A DNA stretch of 7,237 bases from Candidatus Hydrogenedentota bacterium (GTDB lineage Bacteria; UBA8481; J006), in the NCBI GenBank assembly GCA_003697085.1, contig RFFU01000091.1:1-7237 (forward strand), read 5' to 3'. The notes below the pieces were generated by a model that was not told where the DNA came from, searched no databases, and saw nothing but the letters and a program-made list of their open reading frames with translations. Shown piece after piece: positions 596 to 7,237 of the stretch. Both the position numbers and the translations under genes were made by a program. How positions within the stretch are numbered: the first letter of the stretch is position 1; each line of letters opens with the position of its first letter.

Positions 596-624
596 TGTAC
601 AACGAACGGCGGTCTCTGTATGAT
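596..624 (+). promoter_or_regulatory. Candidate sigma70-type promoter for the MinD/FlhG-like gene
   Basis: TGTACA (596-601) and TATGAT (619-624) are separated by 17 bases and match the sigma70 consensus hexamers at 4/6 and 5/6 positions. Transcription would start near 631 and give a leader of about 50 bases before the TTG start at 683. The in-frame ATG at 620 lies inside the -10 hexamer, so it could not be in the transcript if this promoter is used. The prediction is by eye, with no experimental support. Confidence 0.35.
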
Positions 625-682
625 TCGGAGATTCGGACTGTCGGACGGCGGAAGAAAAGGAAGAGGAAAAGGGGAGAGGAAT

Positions 683-1798
683 TTGAGCAAGATACTGGAG
701 CTTTTGCAGCGAATCGAAACACCGAAGCGGAAACTCTTTGAACTTCCTCCTCCCCCGGCGGCCTCCGCCCCGGACCTGGAAGCTGACATCGACGAAGAAG
801 AGATCGATCCCACCATCGACACGCGGCTCGTTCCCATCGCCAGCGGGAAGGGCGGGGTGGGAAAGACCAACGTCGCCGTCAATCTCTCGATCGCGTTGGC
901 GGATCGGCTGGAAAAGGTAAATCCGAACGGGCGCGTCATCCTTGTGGACTGTGACTTCGGTCTTCCGAATGCAGATATCCTCCTTGGAACGCGGGACACG
1001 CGGACCATCGACGATTTTGTCAAGAAACGGATCACGCGTTTGAGCGAGGCGGCGGTTCCGACGGCCGTCCGGCGCCTCTTCTTCCTCTCCGGTTCCGCGA
1101 CTCCCTCCCGTACGCTTTCCAACCTCCATTACCAACAAAGGCAGAAATTCCTCCGCCACCTCAGAAGCCTCAGAGCGGACTTCATCGTCCTCGACCTGGG
1201 AGCCTCGGTTCATTTCGAAGTGGTGGACTTCTTCGCGATGGTAAATACCGGCATCATCGTGACGAATCCGGAGCCCACAGCGTTGCGGGATTCGTTCCTT
1301 TTCCTGCGCACGGTGATCCTGCGGAAGATTCAACAAGAGATGAAACAGTCTCCCGCGGTTGCGGATCTGCTCAACCGCCTCGATCGCGGGGAACTCGAGG
1401 TTCCCAGCATCCCCGGCCTCTTGCGGGAACTCCAACGCGCCGGGCGATTCTTCGAACACAAGACGCTCAGGGCCGTCCTCGAAAGCGTTCAACCGAAGAT
1501 CATCGTCAATCGCGCCGATCATTTCGACGAAGGACTCGAGGTCATCCGCCGATTCCGCTCCGAGACCAAAAAGGAATTGGGAATCGAAGTCTCCTACCTC
1601 GGGCCCGTCCTCCAAGACGACAACGTCGTGCGCGCCGTCAAGGAAGGAACCCCCTTCCTGCGACGTTTTCCGGAATGCGACGCCAGCCACTGGATCCGCA
1701 ACATTGCCGAGCGCATCTCGGAGAACCGAGATTTCGAGATCGAGAAGAATTACTTCTCCTTCGGCTCCTACCTCAAACGCCTCTTCGGAGGCTCTTAA
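683..1798 (+). CDS. MinD/FlhG-family (ParA-like) P-loop ATPase
   Basis: This 371-residue member of the deviant Walker A ATPase family acts in the cytoplasm and probably binds the membrane. The ATP-site motifs are clear: SGKGGVGKT (Lys56 signature lysine, Lys61), VDCDFGLPNADILLG (Asp89/Asp91, switch I) and FIVLDLGAS (about 168-175, Walker B/switch II). A KIIVNRAD strand (272-279) and the YLGPVLQDD segment follow, as in the LDLG-type FlhG/MinD relatives found in deltaproteobacteria. The last residues, S-Y-L-K-R-L-F-G-G-S, closely resemble the membrane-targeting helix of E. coli MinD. I chose TTG at 683 because GGGGAG lies six bases upstream. An in-frame ATG at 620 would add 21 Arg/Gly-rich residues, but it has no ribosome binding site and sits in a putative -10 box. 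Residues 23-45 include a Pro-rich tether. No FlhF or MinC gene is visible nearby, so whether it positions flagella, a division site or another apparatus is open. Confidence 0.88.
   Translation: MSKILELLQRIETPKRKLFELPPPPAASAPDLEADIDEEEIDPTIDTRLVPIASGKGGVGKTNVAVNLSIALADRLEKVNPNGRVILVDCDFGLPNADILLGTRDTRTIDDFVKKRITRLSEAAVPTAVRRLFFLSGSATPSRTLSNLHYQQRQKFLRHLRSLRADFIVLDLGASVHFEVVDFFAMVNTGIIVTNPEPTALRDSFLFLRTVILRKIQQEMKQSPAVADLLNRLDRGELEVPSIPGLLRELQRAGRFFEHKTLRAVLESVQPKIIVNRADHFDEGLEVIRRFRSETKKELGIEVSYLGPVLQDDNVVRAVKEGTPFLRRFPECDASHWIRNIAERISENRDFEIEKNYFSFGSYLKRLFGGS
1779..1792 (+). promoter_or_regulatory. Small cUUCGg hairpin over the end of the ATPase gene
   Basis: GCCTC (1779-1783) and GAGGC (1788-1792) flank TTCG, giving a five-pair stem with a very stable C(UUCG)G tetraloop six bases before the gene's last base. 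It could be an RNA 3' structure, but no T-run follows directly, so it is not a convincing intrinsic terminator. The bases also encode the R-L-F-G-G tail, so the structure may be coincidental. Confidence 0.25.
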
Positions 1799-2232
1799 AA
1801 GGTGTCATTCTTCCATTTTGTCAATTTCAGACTCCTGAAACCACAAGAGTTAGATCAAACTCCACCATACGACAACGCATACATTCGTCGAGCCTACCGC
1901 CAACTAGGGCTCCGAAACCACACCGCCTTCGCTCTCGGAGGAAAATGTCTCGAAGGAAAGGCTCGGCCACACCGCGGGGCATATTCCGCCCTCGGCTTGG
2001 CATCGTCGGCTTTTCGCGGAAGTTGCGGGATATTTTCCGTTTTCCGCCTCGCATCAGTGACCGCTCACAGAGTCGGAACGTTGCAATTCGGTGGCTACGG
2101 CGGGCTCTGAAATGAGACCAACTTTCTGCGGCGAAGAAGGTGGCTTCGTTCCACGAAAGTCTCCGTTCTTCTCCAACAGAAGTTTACGGAAAGAGGAGAA
2201 AATCATAGGAAGAAAGCGAGGGTTGTCGGGAA
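1799..2232. other. 434-base stretch without a convincing gene
   Basis: I find no supported gene here. A GTG-started frame (1802-2110, 102 codons) has GGAGG ten bases upstream and starts three bases after the ATPase stop. Its product is not recognisable, lacks a consistent domain pattern, and is rich in Gly, Ser and Arg towards the end. A short segment, Y-I-R-R-A-Y-R-Q-L, is faintly reminiscent of the J-domain-like small proteins that sometimes follow such ATPases, but this is too weak to call. The stretch also holds a TTCGT-TCC-ACGAA inverted repeat (2145-2157) and presumably the exeA-like gene's promoter, which I could not identify. GAGGG at 2218-2222 serves as the ribosome binding site for the next gene. 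Confidence 0.5.
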
Positions 2233-3921
2233 ATGTATAAGGAGTTTTTCCATCTGGTGGATGAGCCGTTCCGAATGACACCGGATACGCGTTATCTCTT
2301 CCGGTCACGGCGGCACGAGGAGGCGATTTCGTCGCTGCTTTACGGCATCGGCGAAAAGAAGGGGTTCATCGTCATCACGGGGGAGATCGGAACGGGAAAG
2401 ACAACCCTGTGCCGCGCCCTGCTCAACCAACTCGATCCTCATACCAAAACGGCGATCATCCTCAACCCGTCCCTTTCCGCCTCCGAGCTCCTCCATGCAA
2501 TCGTGGACGATCTGGGGATCGAATTGAAGAAGAAGGAGCCGACACAGAAGGAACTGATGGACACGCTCAACGCGTTTCTTATCGAACAGGCGCGGGCCGG
2601 AGGAAACGTCGCGGTGATTATCGACGAGGCACAAAACCTCGACGTCAATGTTCTCGAGTTCATCCGGATGCTCTCAAACCTCGAGACGGAGCAGGAGAAA
2701 CTGCTCCAACTGATCCTGGTGGGGCAACCGGAACTGAATGAAATTCTCAAGATGGATCGGCTCGAGCAGCTCCGCCAGAGAATCGCCGTTCGATACCACA
2801 TCACTCCGCTGGAACGGGATGAGATTCCGGAGTACATTCGGCACCGGCTCAAGATCGCAGGGAACGAACGCGCCGTGAGTTTCGAGAAGGGAGCCGTTGA
2901 TGCGATCGCGGAATACACGGGGGGAACGCCCCGGCTGATCAACATCATCTGCGACAAATGCCTGCTTGCCGCGTACGCGCTCGAGACGAAGACGGTAACG
3001 GAAGCGATCGCACGAAAGGCGATCGTAGATCACGAGGGGCCGGTGTATCGACCGACGAGCGAACGGCGTCAACGAGCGGCGGCATCGTTAGGCGCGGCCG
3101 AGATCGGAGAAGAGTCCTGGGAAGAAGATAGGATTCCCGATGCGGCTGTTTCTCCTTCGCGGCCAGGCAACATCGTGGGGGGCGTTCTCCTGGGTGTTTT
3201 GGCCGCGGGAATCGTTCTGGTCATCCTTCATTCCGCCGGTCTTCGCGGCCGCGTCGACGAGCAACGCCGTTTACCGCGTAGCCCGGCCGTAGCGACGCCG
3301 GCGAGTCCGTCGAAGAAGGATTCGACCAAATCAGTATGGACCGAGAAGGCGGTGGAAAAGAGCACGGAGCCGGAAGTTGTTACGGCCGCGGGTGAGGTTC
3401 TTCGTCTCTGGGGAGCCGATCCGAAAGCGAAGAACTTCGCGGAAGCGGGGATGGCGGCCGTGCCGGTCATGACTGATCTTCCGACACTGGCGGCGATCAA
3501 TCTTCCCGCTCTTATCAAGGTTCTGGACAAACAAGAAAAGGAGGTCGCGCTCGTCGGCGTGACTCCTACATCCTACGAATTCTACCGCGGCGGGGAAGGA
3601 GGGTCCGAACCGATTGTCCGGTATCCGCGGGTCACACTCGACCGCGAGGGGCTCGTCAACGCCCGCATTCCTCTCCCGGCGAACTTCGCCTTCACGACGG
3701 CCTCACCCGCCGACCCCCGTCTCTCGAAGATGCTCGACGATGCACTCGAACGCCTCGGCGTCGTGGTTCCCTGGAAAAACCGCCGACGGGAACCGCTCGC
3801 CCGCCGCGTCCTCCGTTTCCAATCCGCCGCCGGTCTGCCGGTGGACGGAGTCGTCGGTCCGCTCACCTGGTGCGCCCTCGTTTCCTATTCCCATCCGGAA
3901 TACCCGAGCCTGAGGAAGTGA
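2233..3921 (+). CDS. exeA: ExeA/GspA-type AAA ATPase with C39-like and peptidoglycan-binding domains
   Basis: This 562-residue inner-membrane protein has the ExeA/GspA layout. The start, MYKEFFHLVDEPFRMTPD, is the family's typical opening. The cytoplasmic AAA ATPase shows Walker A GEIGTGKTT (50-59), Walker B VAVIIDEAQ (126-134, Asp131/Glu132), a sensor segment LILVGQPEL (160-168), an LRQRI arginine region (180-184) and GGTPRLIN (230-237). A single membrane span covers about 314-336. The periplasmic part begins with a basic linker, then a C39-peptidase-like region (about 385-470, starting EVLRLWGAD) with no cysteine, so probably not a protease. A type 1 peptidoglycan-binding domain follows (about 497-551, RRVLRFQSAAGLPVDGVVGP). 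In Aeromonas and Vibrio, ExeA/GspA works with GspB to get the type II secretin assembled across peptidoglycan. The GspB-like gene starts four bases downstream. No other type II secretion genes are visible, so the client apparatus is unknown. Confidence 0.92.
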   Translation: MYKEFFHLVDEPFRMTPDTRYLFRSRRHEEAISSLLYGIGEKKGFIVITGEIGTGKTTLCRALLNQLDPHTKTAIILNPSLSASELLHAIVDDLGIELKKKEPTQKELMDTLNAFLIEQARAGGNVAVIIDEAQNLDVNVLEFIRMLSNLETEQEKLLQLILVGQPELNEILKMDRLEQLRQRIAVRYHITPLERDEIPEYIRHRLKIAGNERAVSFEKGAVDAIAEYTGGTPRLINIICDKCLLAAYALETKTVTEAIARKAIVDHEGPVYRPTSERRQRAAASLGAAEIGEESWEEDRIPDAAVSPSRPGNIVGGVLLGVLAAGIVLVILHSAGLRGRVDEQRRLPRSPAVATPASPSKKDSTKSVWTEKAVEKSTEPEVVTAAGEVLRLWGADPKAKNFAEAGMAAVPVMTDLPTLAAINLPALIKVLDKQEKEVALVGVTPTSYEFYRGGEGGSEPIVRYPRVTLDREGLVNARIPLPANFAFTTASPADPRLSKMLDDALERLGVVVPWKNRRREPLARRVLRFQSAAGLPVDGVVGPLTWCALVSYSHPEYPSLRK

Positions 3922-3925
3922 CGCC

Positions 3926-5239
3926 GTGAGCATTATTCACGACGCGCTTCGAAAAGGTAAACCGGGAACAGCCCCCCGAATCGTTCCGCCTTCCTCGAAA
4001 CGAACCGCTTCCGTCAAGCCCGACTCCCCGTGGATTCCCGCGCTTCTGGGGTTCGCCGGCGTGATCGCCGCGGCTTTGATCACCTGGTCACTGGCTCGCG
4101 GGCCTGAAATACGGGTCGTGACGATCGAAGCGCCATCGCGTCCCCCCTCCGCCGCGCGCTCTGAACCAAGTCTCAGTTCTTCCTCGCCCCGCGAAAAACC
4201 CTTGCCTGCTCGAACATCTCCCAACTCCGAACCGCTTGTTCTGGCATTCAACAAGGTTCCGCCCCGTTCAACCTACACGCTTCCTCAGATTCCTCTCACC
4301 TTTCAGCGGAGGCCCACACCTCCCGCTCCCCTTCCCTCTTCCTCTTCCTTCCCCTCCGGAGAGATTTCTCCCTCGGAAGAAGAAACGACGGGACGTGAGT
4401 CGACGGAAGGCAAGGTCGGCTCGGAGGAGCCCCCCTTCGCGGAAGATGTCGCTCATCAGGAAGCGGCTCCGGAACGCCCTGCGGCGCAAGAATTAACGCC
4501 GTCTCAAATGCCTTCCCCACCACTCGATGTCTCGGCCGCGAATCGCCCCGCCGCCTCGAAAGTTCCAGTGAGCGAAGAAGTACCGGAACCGGTAATCCCA
4601 CCTTCCTCCACCGGGGAGAAAAACGAGGAAAGTACGCCACCAGCCGGTGCCGACGCCGTTTCGATGGGCGCGGGTCCTCGCGAACCTTCCCCGAAAATTC
4701 ATTCGACTCCCGCGACTCCGGAAGAGGAAACCGGGGGTGAGCCGGAAACCTCCGACGCTCCCGTTATCATTCCGGTCCAAAAGGCTCCGCGGATTCCCCT
4801 GCCACGCCCTCAGACGGACGAGGACCTACCGCCGGATGCCGTGACAATCTCGCTGGGAGGCGGAACACTCCAGAGCCTTATCGGACGTGTCACCGTAAAC
4901 GGGGAGGAAGCGATTCCCGGTCGTGTCTTGGGAATCGGCGACAAAATTCGGACGGAACGGGCTTCGAACGCAACGCTTGCCATCGGGGGAGCGGTGATCG
5001 AGGTTCAGCCGTTTACGCGGCTCGAGATTCTCCAGACGGAGGTTCATTCGCGCCGTAACCATCCCTTGGAGGAATACACGACCCTCTTTCTCGAACGAGG
5101 TTCCCTCGATGTCGTTCTTCGGCGAATCGAAGGCTCCTTCACGATCAAGACTCCGACGAAGACCTTCACGCGTCAAAGCGGCGCCTTCACAATCACGCAG
5201 CCCGCAAAGGGTGAGCCTCGGTTGGTTTCCCGCTACTGA
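3926..5239 (+). CDS. GspB-like membrane protein with C-terminal FecR-like domain
   Basis: This 437-residue protein starts at a GTG with GAGGA nine bases upstream, four bases after the exeA-like stop, so translation is probably coupled. The opening M-S-I-I-H-D-A-L-R-K matches the GspB/ExeB signature (MSxILDALKK). A single membrane span lies at about 36-57. Residues 60-300 are a long low-complexity linker rich in Pro, Ser, Glu and Ala, suited to crossing the periplasm. Residues 307-428 look like a FecR domain: LIGRVTVNGEEAIPGRVLG, then IGDKIRTERASNATLAIGG, FLERGSLDVVL and FTIKTPT. GspB proteins usually end in a different globular domain, and I do not see it. A role as the partner of the neighbouring ATPase in building a secretin-type envelope complex is inferred from the N-terminus and the context. 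The FecR part might bind peptidoglycan, a secretin or a signalling partner. Confidence 0.8.
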   Translation: MSIIHDALRKGKPGTAPRIVPPSSKRTASVKPDSPWIPALLGFAGVIAAALITWSLARGPEIRVVTIEAPSRPPSAARSEPSLSSSSPREKPLPARTSPNSEPLVLAFNKVPPRSTYTLPQIPLTFQRRPTPPAPLPSSSSFPSGEISPSEEETTGRESTEGKVGSEEPPFAEDVAHQEAAPERPAAQELTPSQMPSPPLDVSAANRPAASKVPVSEEVPEPVIPPSSTGEKNEESTPPAGADAVSMGAGPREPSPKIHSTPATPEEETGGEPETSDAPVIIPVQKAPRIPLPRPQTDEDLPPDAVTISLGGGTLQSLIGRVTVNGEEAIPGRVLGIGDKIRTERASNATLAIGGAVIEVQPFTRLEILQTEVHSRRNHPLEEYTTLFLERGSLDVVLRRIEGSFTIKTPTKTFTRQSGAFTITQPAKGEPRLVSRY

Positions 5240-5423: not shown

Positions 5424-5855
5424 TCAATACGGTTGCGAAGCCGCTCCTTCCGATTTCTTCGCGTGAATCTCGAAGGGGTAGACGGCGGCGATCCCGTGAC
5501 GAACCATAACCTTCCCCCTGACCTCCACTTCCTGTCCCGCCAGGTCCGCCAATCCCTCGAGCAATTTCCCGTGATCGCCGGTAACGATATAGATCGTCTC
5601 GTCGCTCTCGTTGAGCACTCCCAACGGCCCACCGGCTTTCGCACAGGTTACAGCGCAGGCTTGATGCTTCTTCCCGCGGGCACCGTGATCGAGGTAACAC
5701 CCGAGATCAATCAATTCTCCCCGAAGGACGACTCCTTCGTGCCCCCCTGAACGTCCCTTTGCCTCGACACCCGGCCGGGCGAAAAAGAAGACCGCGCCCG
5801 CCATAAGAAGCGCGCTCCCGATAACCACGGAGAAACGAAACCCTTTTCTTTTCAT
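5424..5855 (-). CDS. Small exported protein with Cys/His cluster, possibly OB-fold
   Basis: I do not recognise a named gene. The 143-residue protein has a basic N-terminus, a hydrophobic segment (about 8-26) and a possible signal-peptidase site after V-E-A (residues 30-32). It is therefore exported or anchored by an uncleaved signal. Residues 43-132 look like a small beta-rich domain, perhaps OB-like: RGELIDLGCYLDHG, then KHQACAVTCAKAGGPLGVL, TIYIVTGDHGKLLEGLADLAG and VEVRGKVMVRHGI. Cys53, His57, His64, Cys67 and Cys71 form a tight C-x3-H-x6-H-x2-C-x3-C cluster that could bind a metal or a redox cofactor. The ATG at 5855 has GGAGG seven bases upstream. The DsrE-family gene ends 55 bases before it on the same strand, so the two are probably one transcript. 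The function is unknown, and a periplasmic redox or metal role is inference. Confidence 0.8.
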   Translation of the reverse strand: MKRKGFRFSVVIGSALLMAGAVFFFARPGVEAKGRSGGHEGVVLRGELIDLGCYLDHGARGKKHQACAVTCAKAGGPLGVLNESDETIYIVTGDHGKLLEGLADLAGQEVEVRGKVMVRHGIAAVYPFEIHAKKSEGAASQPY

Positions 5856-5910: not shown

Positions 5911-6264
5911 TCAGAACGTCAGCAAATGATAGCCGTCCCGGAGATACCTTCTCACACTCGGGTGGCCGTCGAATTCATCGAGGAGGGATATCCCGATTTT
6001 CTCGACTGTCTCCGCCACGCCGAAGGCCTTCGCGCAATAGGAACACGCTCCACCGATGCACTCCTTCACCTCCGAGAAGAGGCGATGGTACTTGTGTGAG
6101 GCTTCGGCCAACGCTCCCGGCCACAACGTAGCGGCACCGTCGAAAATAAGAATAACCTCTTCGCCGGCCTCCTTCAACTCTTTTACGGTCTCAAGAGCAT
6201 TCGCCATCCGGCCCCACCCTTCTTTCGACTCATCGCTCGCGAGCAACACTACCGCAACCTTCAT
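5911..6264 (-). CDS. DsrE-family protein with three cysteines
   Basis: This 117-residue cytoplasmic protein fits the DsrE/DsrF/TusD-like fold. It opens with a beta strand (KVAVVLLAS), has a helix containing RMANALETVKEL, then the strand EEVILIFDGAATLWP typical of DsrE relatives. Near the C-terminal third it has ECIGGACSYCAKAFGV, with Cys69, Cys74 and Cys77. In DsrE-type proteins a cysteine around this place can carry a persulfide in sulfur transfer, so a sulfur-relay or redox role is plausible but unproven. The length is normal for the family. A GTG three codons upstream is in frame but overlaps the GGGAGG ribosome binding site, so I chose the ATG at 6264, eight bases after that site. It probably leads a two-gene operon with the exported Cys/His protein gene downstream. 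Confidence 0.85.
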   Translation of the reverse strand: MKVAVVLLASDESKEGWGRMANALETVKELKEAGEEVILIFDGAATLWPGALAEASHKYHRLFSEVKECIGGACSYCAKAFGVAETVEKIGISLLDEFDGHPSVRRYLRDGYHLLTF

Positions 6265-6490
6265 CGCTTCCACCTCCCATCAGACTGTAGTCACGGGTTT
6301 TCGTCGGAGATTTTCCGTTTCCCTTACGGTGATTCTAGAAGCGGTTTCATAAGTACCGTTACGGCCTCGAAATTTCTGCAATCTCGAGGAGAGAAAAAAC
6401 CGCTTCGAAATTATCCGAGACGGAAAGAGACAAGCCGCGGCGCGCCACCACGGAGGGGAAGGGAAAGGCGGAGGGGGGGGGAAGAATGAG
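6265..6490. other. Gene-free stretch upstream of the DsrE-family gene
   Basis: No gene is seen here. The stretch holds the DsrE gene's ribosome binding site, the nested inverted repeat described separately, and a purine-rich segment with a run of nine G (6473-6481). A promoter for the DsrE operon must lie here or in the terminator region beyond, unless transcription reads through. I could not find a convincing sigma70 or sigma54 match. Confidence 0.5.
6338..6406. repeat. Long inverted repeat upstream of the DsrE-family gene
   Basis: GAAGCGGTTT (6338-6347) is exactly complementary to AAACCGCTTC (6397-6406), 49 bases apart. Between them CCTCGA (6365-6370) and TCGAGG (6384-6389) form a second, nested inverted pair. 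A TTCTAGAA palindrome (6333-6340) overlaps the left arm. The element sits about 70-140 bases before the DsrE start on the minus strand, where a promoter or leader is expected. It could be an operator pair or a folded leader RNA. No known motif is recognised. Confidence 0.4.
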
Positions 6491-6529
6491 AAAAGAAAGC
6501 GGGGTCGGAACCGTCCGAACCCCGCTTTC
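6491..6529 (-). terminator. Intrinsic terminator of the hendecad-repeat gene
   Basis: GAAAGCGGGGT (6495-6505) pairs with ACCCCGCTTTC (6519-6529). After one bulged A (6518), CGGA pairs with TCCG to give a 15-pair stem closed by a four-base loop. Read on the minus strand, the stem is followed directly by TTTTCTCATTC. It lies about 30 bases past the stop of the repeat-protein gene, as expected for a Rho-independent terminator. Confidence 0.85.
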
Positions 6530-6561
6530 GGTCTTTCCGTTTTCGATAGCCTTCTCCCGAC

Positions 6562-7237
6562 TCAGTGCCGTCGGCGACTCGAATGCCGAGATTGAGCGTG
6601 CGAACGTGCCGTGCTGCGCCGCTCGTGCGCCCTCGACCGGGCTGCACTACGACGTTCGTGCGCCCTTGACCGAGCCGCACTCCGGCGATCCCGGGCCTTA
6701 GATCGAGCGGTGCTCCGGCGCTCTTGAGCCTTCGAACGTGCTGTACTCCTCCGGTCTTTCGCTCTTTCTTTCGCTTCGCCGCGCCGCTCCTTGGCTTTCT
6801 CTTTCGCTTCGCCGCGCCGCTCTTTCGCCTTCTCCTTCGCTTCCGCGCGTCGCTCTTGCGCCTTCTCTTTCGCTTCCTCGCGCCGCTTTTGCGCATTCTC
6901 CTTCGCTTCCTCGCGCCGCTCTTGCGCCTTCTCCTTCGCCTCCGCGCGCCGCTCTTTCGCCTTCTCCTTCGCTTCGCTGCGTCGCTCTTGCGCCTTCTCT
7001 TTCATCTCCTGCCGGTGTTCCTGTACCTTCTCCTTCACCTCATCCCGGTGCTCTTGAACCTTTTCCTTCACTTCCTCACGGTGCTCTTTCGCTTTCTCCT
7101 TCGCTTCCGCGCGCCGCTCTTGCGCCTTCTCCTTCGCCTCCTCGCGCCGCTCCTGCGCCTTTTGCCTCGCCTCGTCCCAACGCGACCCCTCGTCTGATGT
7201 CGCCGTACCTTCATCCGTGGATTCATCCGCCCGAACA
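6562..7237 (-). CDS. LEA-like 11-residue-repeat protein, N-terminus outside window
   Basis: The frame is open to the window edge, so the true start is not seen; 224 codons are visible. After 21 mostly acidic or small residues (DESTDEGTATSDEGSRWD part), the protein is 18 uninterrupted 11-residue units plus a five-residue basic tail. The typical unit is EAKEKAQERRE, with Ala at unit positions 2 and 6 and charged residues elsewhere. Such a pattern predicts a long, very soluble, polar helix, and it resembles the AKEKAxE core of group 3 LEA proteins. Units 14-18 change to TARSKAQERRS or AARSRAHERRS and become strongly basic. No large hydrophobic residue or Cys occurs in the repeats. This frame is preferred over other open frames here because the protein repeat is regular and a strong terminator follows its stop. 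Stress protection, nucleic-acid binding or an envelope spacer role are all possible; none is shown. Confidence 0.75.
   Translation of the reverse strand, partial: VRADESTDEGTATSDEGSRWDEARQKAQERREEAKEKAQERRAEAKEKAKEHREEVKEKVQEHRDEVKEKVQEHRQEMKEKAQERRSEAKEKAKERRAEAKEKAQERREEAKENAQKRREEAKEKAQERRAEAKEKAKERRGEAKEKAKERRGEAKERAKDRRSTARSKAQERRSTARSKARDRRSAARSRAHERRSAARSRAHERRSTARSHAQSRHSSRRRH
6580..7173 (-). repeat. Tandem array of 18 units of 33 bp, coding
   Basis: Eighteen direct units of 33 bases encode the 11-residue repeats of the overlapping gene. Units are diverged, not identical: units 1-12 keep the E-A-K-E-K-A type with Val, Met or Asn exceptions (units 4, 5, 6, 9), unit 13 is transitional (EAKERAKDRRS), and units 14-18 are the TARS/AARS type. 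Neighbouring pairs 11-12 and 16-17 are identical in protein sequence, which points to growth by local duplication. Confidence 0.85.

Follow-up and report, generated by a model that had tools for sequence, protein, structure and literature searches.

The window (the whole 7,237-nucleotide stretch of DNA analysed) corresponded to the entire contig C126. At its right end, the minus-strand open reading frame 6562-7236 was open at its 5' end and contained 18 contiguous 11-residue units (hendecads) followed by five residues, the gene being cut by the window edge. The right end of the window and the end of contig C72 shared an exact overlap of 99 bp, and end overlaps of this kind are a typical leftover of k-mer assemblers. 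Through this overlap, 22 more residues were recovered on C72, and the joined frame encoded a protein of 246 amino acids, starting at an ATG (L002:1436) with an AAGGAGG ribosome-binding site before it. In the full-length protein, a Sec-type signal peptide, an acidic linker, 13 units of the type EAKEKAQERRE, five Arg/Ser units and a basic end followed one another. The features of the locus, in window coordinates, were as follows:

7228..7236, minus strand: final three residues, VRA, of the signal peptide MRGKALLGLVLCGCVLVSAPVVVRA, of Sec type as judged by eye from the sequence; the remainder, the ATG and AAGGAGG lie on contig C72 (99-bp overlap of C126 and C72)
7174..7227, minus strand: acidic linker DESTDEGTATSDEGSRWD, residues 26-43, after the predicted signal-peptidase site (sequence layout)
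6745..7173, minus strand: first 13 hendecads, of EAKEKAQERRE type, spanning residues 44-186 of the full-length protein (layout, lag-11 identity, position profile, pN/pS)
6580..6744, minus strand: last five hendecads (units 14-18), of the strongly cationic Arg/Ser type RRSTARSKAQE, spanning residues 187-241 (layout, net charge of approximately +6 to +7 per 22 residues)
6562..6579, minus strand: C-terminal SRRRH and stop codon TGA (ORF reading, layout)
6495..6529, minus strand: intrinsic terminator hairpin just 3' of the gene, then TTTTCTC (fold of 6480-6540: -28.8 kcal/mol, z -4.3)

The array of 18 contiguous units on the minus strand, as described in the initial annotation, was recovered unchanged: the layout comprised exactly 18 units, and identity at a lag of 11 residues in the mature protein was 0.69, compared with 0.14 ± 0.02 (maximum 0.22) in 2000 shuffles. 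Assignment to the hendecad repeat class is well supported. The same annotation described the units as of the EAKEKAQERRE type, which held for units 1-13 but not for units 14-18 (RRSTARSKAQE), where most of the Glu was gone, being lost at two positions. It had also allowed for the segment being only a linker of a well-known large protein, a reading rejected by the recovered full-length gene, of only 246 aa. Followed beyond the right edge, as had been recommended there, the gene displayed a signal peptide, no folded domain at either end and no clear lipobox.

Given the strong hairpin with a T-rich tail after the stop codon, the gene is probably monocistronic. A DUF47/PhoU-like gene was located upstream, in divergent orientation, and an Rfam search found nothing. 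The Sec-type signal peptide indicates that the protein probably leaves the cytoplasm, and on the sequence level this export is well supported. Since Omp85 and LpxC genes were present in the host genome, the host is a diderm having an outer membrane with lipid A, which makes the periplasm the likely location of the protein; we infer both cleavage of the signal peptide and periplasmic residence. Other features were noticed elsewhere in the window: on the minus strand, a small secreted protein with a Cys cluster (CYLD...CAVTC) and no Pfam match (5424-5855) and a DsrE/DsrF-like protein (5911-6273; 19.7 bits, just under the Pfam cut-off of 22.7); on the plus strand (620-5239), a MinD/FlhG-like ATPase, an XrtA-associated/ExeA-type ATPase with a peptidoglycan-binding domain, and a third protein, the C-terminus of which appeared FecR-like by eye, with no Pfam match.

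The consensus register of group 3 LEA proteins has hydrophobic residues at positions 1, 2, 5 and 9 (PMC10295645), and repeat positions were scored in this published register (PMC10295645, PMC8123400). At six of the nine constrained positions (5, 6, 7, 8, 9 and 11), nearly all of units 1-13 agreed with the consensus, with Ala at 5 and 9, Lys/Arg at 6 and 8 and mostly Glu at 7 and 11; agreement was partial at position 3, where 37% of all units had an acidic or amide residue. Over the whole array, the hydrophobic positions 5 and 9 conformed at frequencies of 1.00 and 0.95, against 0.00 and 0.05 for positions 1 and 2, which were occupied by Arg/His and Arg, respectively, and make up half of the hydrophobic stripe of a LEA helix. 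The Arg pairs that the initial annotation had singled out as atypical of LEA motifs thus fall exactly on hydrophobic positions 1 and 2. The LEA-like core proposed there stood as regards the 11-residue period and the six positions, but not as regards positions 1 and 2 or the Pfam LEA_4 profile, which, searched as had been suggested, scored 9.9 bits, below its cut-off of 51.1. In the suggested apolipoprotein profile search, no Pfam family other than Apolipoprotein matched at E 0.1 (28.5 bits, E 1.5e-6), and this match lay below its cut-off of 90; the best PDB sequence matches were ApoA-I fragments (E 2.9e-6). This similarity, which is in part a matter of composition and stays under the curated cut-off, is only suggestive, and by the families' own tests the protein is a member of neither LEA_4 nor Apolipoprotein. 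A LEA_4 search over the host genome gave no match, a result of no weight because the controls were silent too. In sum of resemblances, the protein shares with group 3 LEA proteins (Pfam LEA_4, PF02987, including Deinococcus DosH) the tandem 11-mers, the A-K-E-K-A core and high hydrophilicity, but differs in its Arg/His at positions 1 and 2, net positive charge, signal peptide and lack of a LEA_4 match; with apolipoproteins A-I/A-IV/E (PF01442) it shares helical repeats of 11/22 residues and the best Pfam and PDB sequence matches, but not the bulky hydrophobic face.

When residues were projected on an 11/3 helix, the apolar, positive and negative directions lay at 48, 69 and 257 degrees, respectively, each moment being larger than in all 500 shuffles. 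Ala5 and Ala9 shared a side with the Arg/Lys of positions 1, 2, 6 and 8, with Glu 4, 7 and 11 opposite (LEA register); the helix thus has one face made up of Ala and cationic residues and another that is anionic. The hydrophobic moment (Fauchere) was 0.079, inside the shuffle range (maximum 0.107), so that there was no clear hydrophobic face.

A scan of named genomes matched seven loci. The protein at L014, from a deltaproteobacterial groundwater MAG, repeated the layout of the window protein, with a signal peptide, a polar linker, hendecads and a Lys/His-rich end, and L033 and L034, found in genomes near that of L014 and clear orthologues of each other (65%), showed a signal peptide, a polar linker, hendecads and a net-positive end. 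These three exported hendecad proteins differed from the window protein in that position 1 of most of their body units was I, V, L, M or A, followed by Lys/Arg at position 2, in the prevalence of Lys over Arg, and in their hydrophobic moments (0.19-0.30, above all shuffles, vs. 0.08 in the window protein). Identity between the window protein and these relatives was 44-45%, over low-complexity repeats, and the neighbourhood was not shared; the likeness appears to be one of layout, which would fit common descent and convergence alike. When a profile built from the four proteins was run at E 1e-5, 16 of 386 genomes gave matches, many of them owing to composition only. Individual inspection brought up further exported hendecad proteins in scattered genomes: L047, which also has a PDZ domain, L048, which has one of FecR type (52 bits, cut-off 24), and the Arg-rich L050. 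The flavobacterial L010-L013, in which no signal peptide was seen, were YtxH/apolipoprotein-like and of a different layout, L016 was set aside for its membrane helices, and the only find of a viral scan was a phage-like protein whose helical stretch was short and whose layout differed. A tblastn search against plasmids gave no match, which is weak evidence because the BLAST low-complexity filter was on. The host lineage was isolated, with one relative of the same order (G001, 86% complete) among the genomes compared, and that genome had no match to the hendecad protein. A protein of similar purity, exported and built of hendecad/22-mer repeats (REARKDAEERQ), was observed in Shewanella canadensis at L015:4764-5468.

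A precedent for bacterial export of LEA-like 11-mers is BilRI of Aggregatibacter, an exported outer-membrane LEA_4-like protein with eleven such 11-mers, mostly ending in KD[A/T], which was predicted to be 92-97% helical yet was disordered by NMR, and whose repeats did not bind LPS (PMC8096337). The window protein is similar in both export and LEA-like repeats, but differs from BilRI in being Arg-rich, in its cationic tail and in having no clear lipobox. This precedent, together with the fit of the hendecads to most of the LEA consensus and the weak LEA_4 matches of L014 (17.8 bits), L033 (19.2) and L034 (14.7), would agree with an ordinary group 3 LEA-type desiccation protectant that is exported, disordered in water and helical on drying, and that shields proteins and membranes. 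Such a role is unlikely for the window protein, which carried Arg/His at hydrophobic positions 1 and 2 in nearly all units, fell far short of the LEA_4 cut-off and was strongly net positive (net charge per residue of +0.11), whereas the LEA_4 proteins of Arabidopsis are charge-balanced, with a net charge per residue near zero (PMC7215670).

Counted per 22 residues, net charge increased towards the C-terminus, from -6 to about +7, and units 14-18 plus the C-terminal end totalled approximately +20 and were rich in Arg, Ser and His. The protein might accordingly be read as an exported polycation, with the tail binding a polyanion (extracellular DNA, polyphosphate, LPS or a mineral) and the hendecads acting as a spacer, and L014 had its Lys/His-rich tail at the same place. 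This reading is quite improbable: 13 conserved, nearly neutral hendecads would be superfluous for a polycation, the tails of L033 and L034 were only mildly cationic, and BilRI did not bind DNA (PMC8096337).

For the part of the protein encoded in the window, AF2 drew a single uninterrupted helix from residue 17 to residue 223, with a mean pLDDT of 89, in a run on a single sequence of a composition that readily favours helix. Such a model, together with the content of charged residues (59%) and Ala (17%) and a length of approximately 297 Å for 18 units as a helix, would be compatible with a stable single alpha-helix (SAH), a rod of approximately 30 nm that could span the periplasm. SAHs owe their stability to numerous E-K/E-R pairs at i/i+3,4 (PMC5347031). 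The window protein resembles SAH domains in its predicted helix, which is long and rich in E, R and K, but separates its charges by face instead of pairing them along the helix: in units 1-13, attractive i/i+3,4 pairs were fewer than in shuffles (47 vs. 58 ± 6) and repulsive ones more numerous (65 vs. 57 ± 6). The shortage of attractive pairs suggests that charges are arranged by face and not to stabilise a lone helix. With charge pairing running in the opposite direction and no folded domain at either end to bridge, the rod was disfavoured and is distinctly doubtful. Since BilRI was disordered despite its helical prediction, a helix formed on binding is here just as probable as a preformed one.

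Pairwise comparison of units 1-13 in the coding frame gave a pS of 0.58 and a pN of 0.165 (ratio 0.28), and pN/pS was 0.32 for units 14-18. In the other two same-strand frames, ratios were 1.20 and 1.05 for units 1-13 (1.05-3.1 over both unit groups), while one antisense frame gave 0.37 (0.37-0.40 over both groups) because codon positions there mirror those of the coding frame. The high pS indicates that the array is old and not the product of recent slippage, and the low pN/pS, in DNA that has drifted, that the amino-acid sequence has been kept by selection; the hendecad ORF is a real gene under selection at the protein level. A spurious ORF or a recent, functionless microsatellite-like expansion, which the low complexity and the simple 33-bp period might bring to mind, is scarcely credible and was rejected on the in-frame pN/pS of 0.28-0.32 at high synonymous divergence, in a gene having a ribosome-binding site, a signal peptide and a terminator.

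The reading that we favour, tentatively and with somewhat less than even confidence, is that of a Sec-exported, probably periplasmic protein, a LEA/apolipoprotein-like helix that attaches to anionic surfaces of the envelope by electrostatic attraction, is tethered by its cationic C-terminus and serves as a protectant or coat. Arg in place of half of the hydrophobic residues of a LEA helix points to a probable grip on such surfaces and not to burial in lipid; this substitution and the charge split are what make the protein unusual. Once exported via Sec, the protein would form one long helix, or become helical when bound. Its Arg/Lys/Ala face would lie on phospholipid headgroups or LPS phosphates, the Glu face would be turned outward or lie against an adjacent helix, and the protein would be kept on the surface by its last five units, which are very cationic, and its polycationic C-terminus. 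Its role would be that of a stress protectant or surface coat, as for LEA and apolipoprotein repeats, but exerted electrostatically rather than by hydrophobic insertion. We infer surface binding from the charge pattern alone, and the protective role is suggested by analogy. The hydrophobic stripe is thought to drive membrane binding of LEA proteins and apolipoproteins. The window gene encodes a natural hendecad protein in which this stripe is almost gone and the 11-residue period is still under selection, and thus allows one to ask what hendecads do without lipid insertion; it also directs attention to the export of LEA-like proteins by poorly known groups of bacteria.

In some of the other hendecad loci, a link to FecR and ECF sigma factors was observed. 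At L014:3105-5459, an ECF sigma gene, a FecR gene, whose product had a long tail rich in Lys/Arg/Asp, and directly thereafter the exported hendecad gene lay on one strand, and the Arg-rich hendecad tail of L048 (G177:C143, minus strand) belonged to an exported protein that also contained a FecR domain. Both arrangements hint at envelope-stress control of some members; no ECF sigma or FecR neighbour was found at the loci of L033, L034 or the window gene. A distinct, scattered class of exported, charge-split hendecad proteins that coats the envelope electrostatically, some of its members being tied to FecR/ECF-sigma envelope signalling, is conceivable but on present evidence improbable. For the type of protein encoded in the window, the literature search found no description. 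Apart from the hendecad proteins, an exported protein in which 18-residue repeats (ERRGQAQENAQGRREDLR), nearly identical to one another, precede a GGRGG-rich end was noticed at L063 (G293:C1:1214494-1214949).
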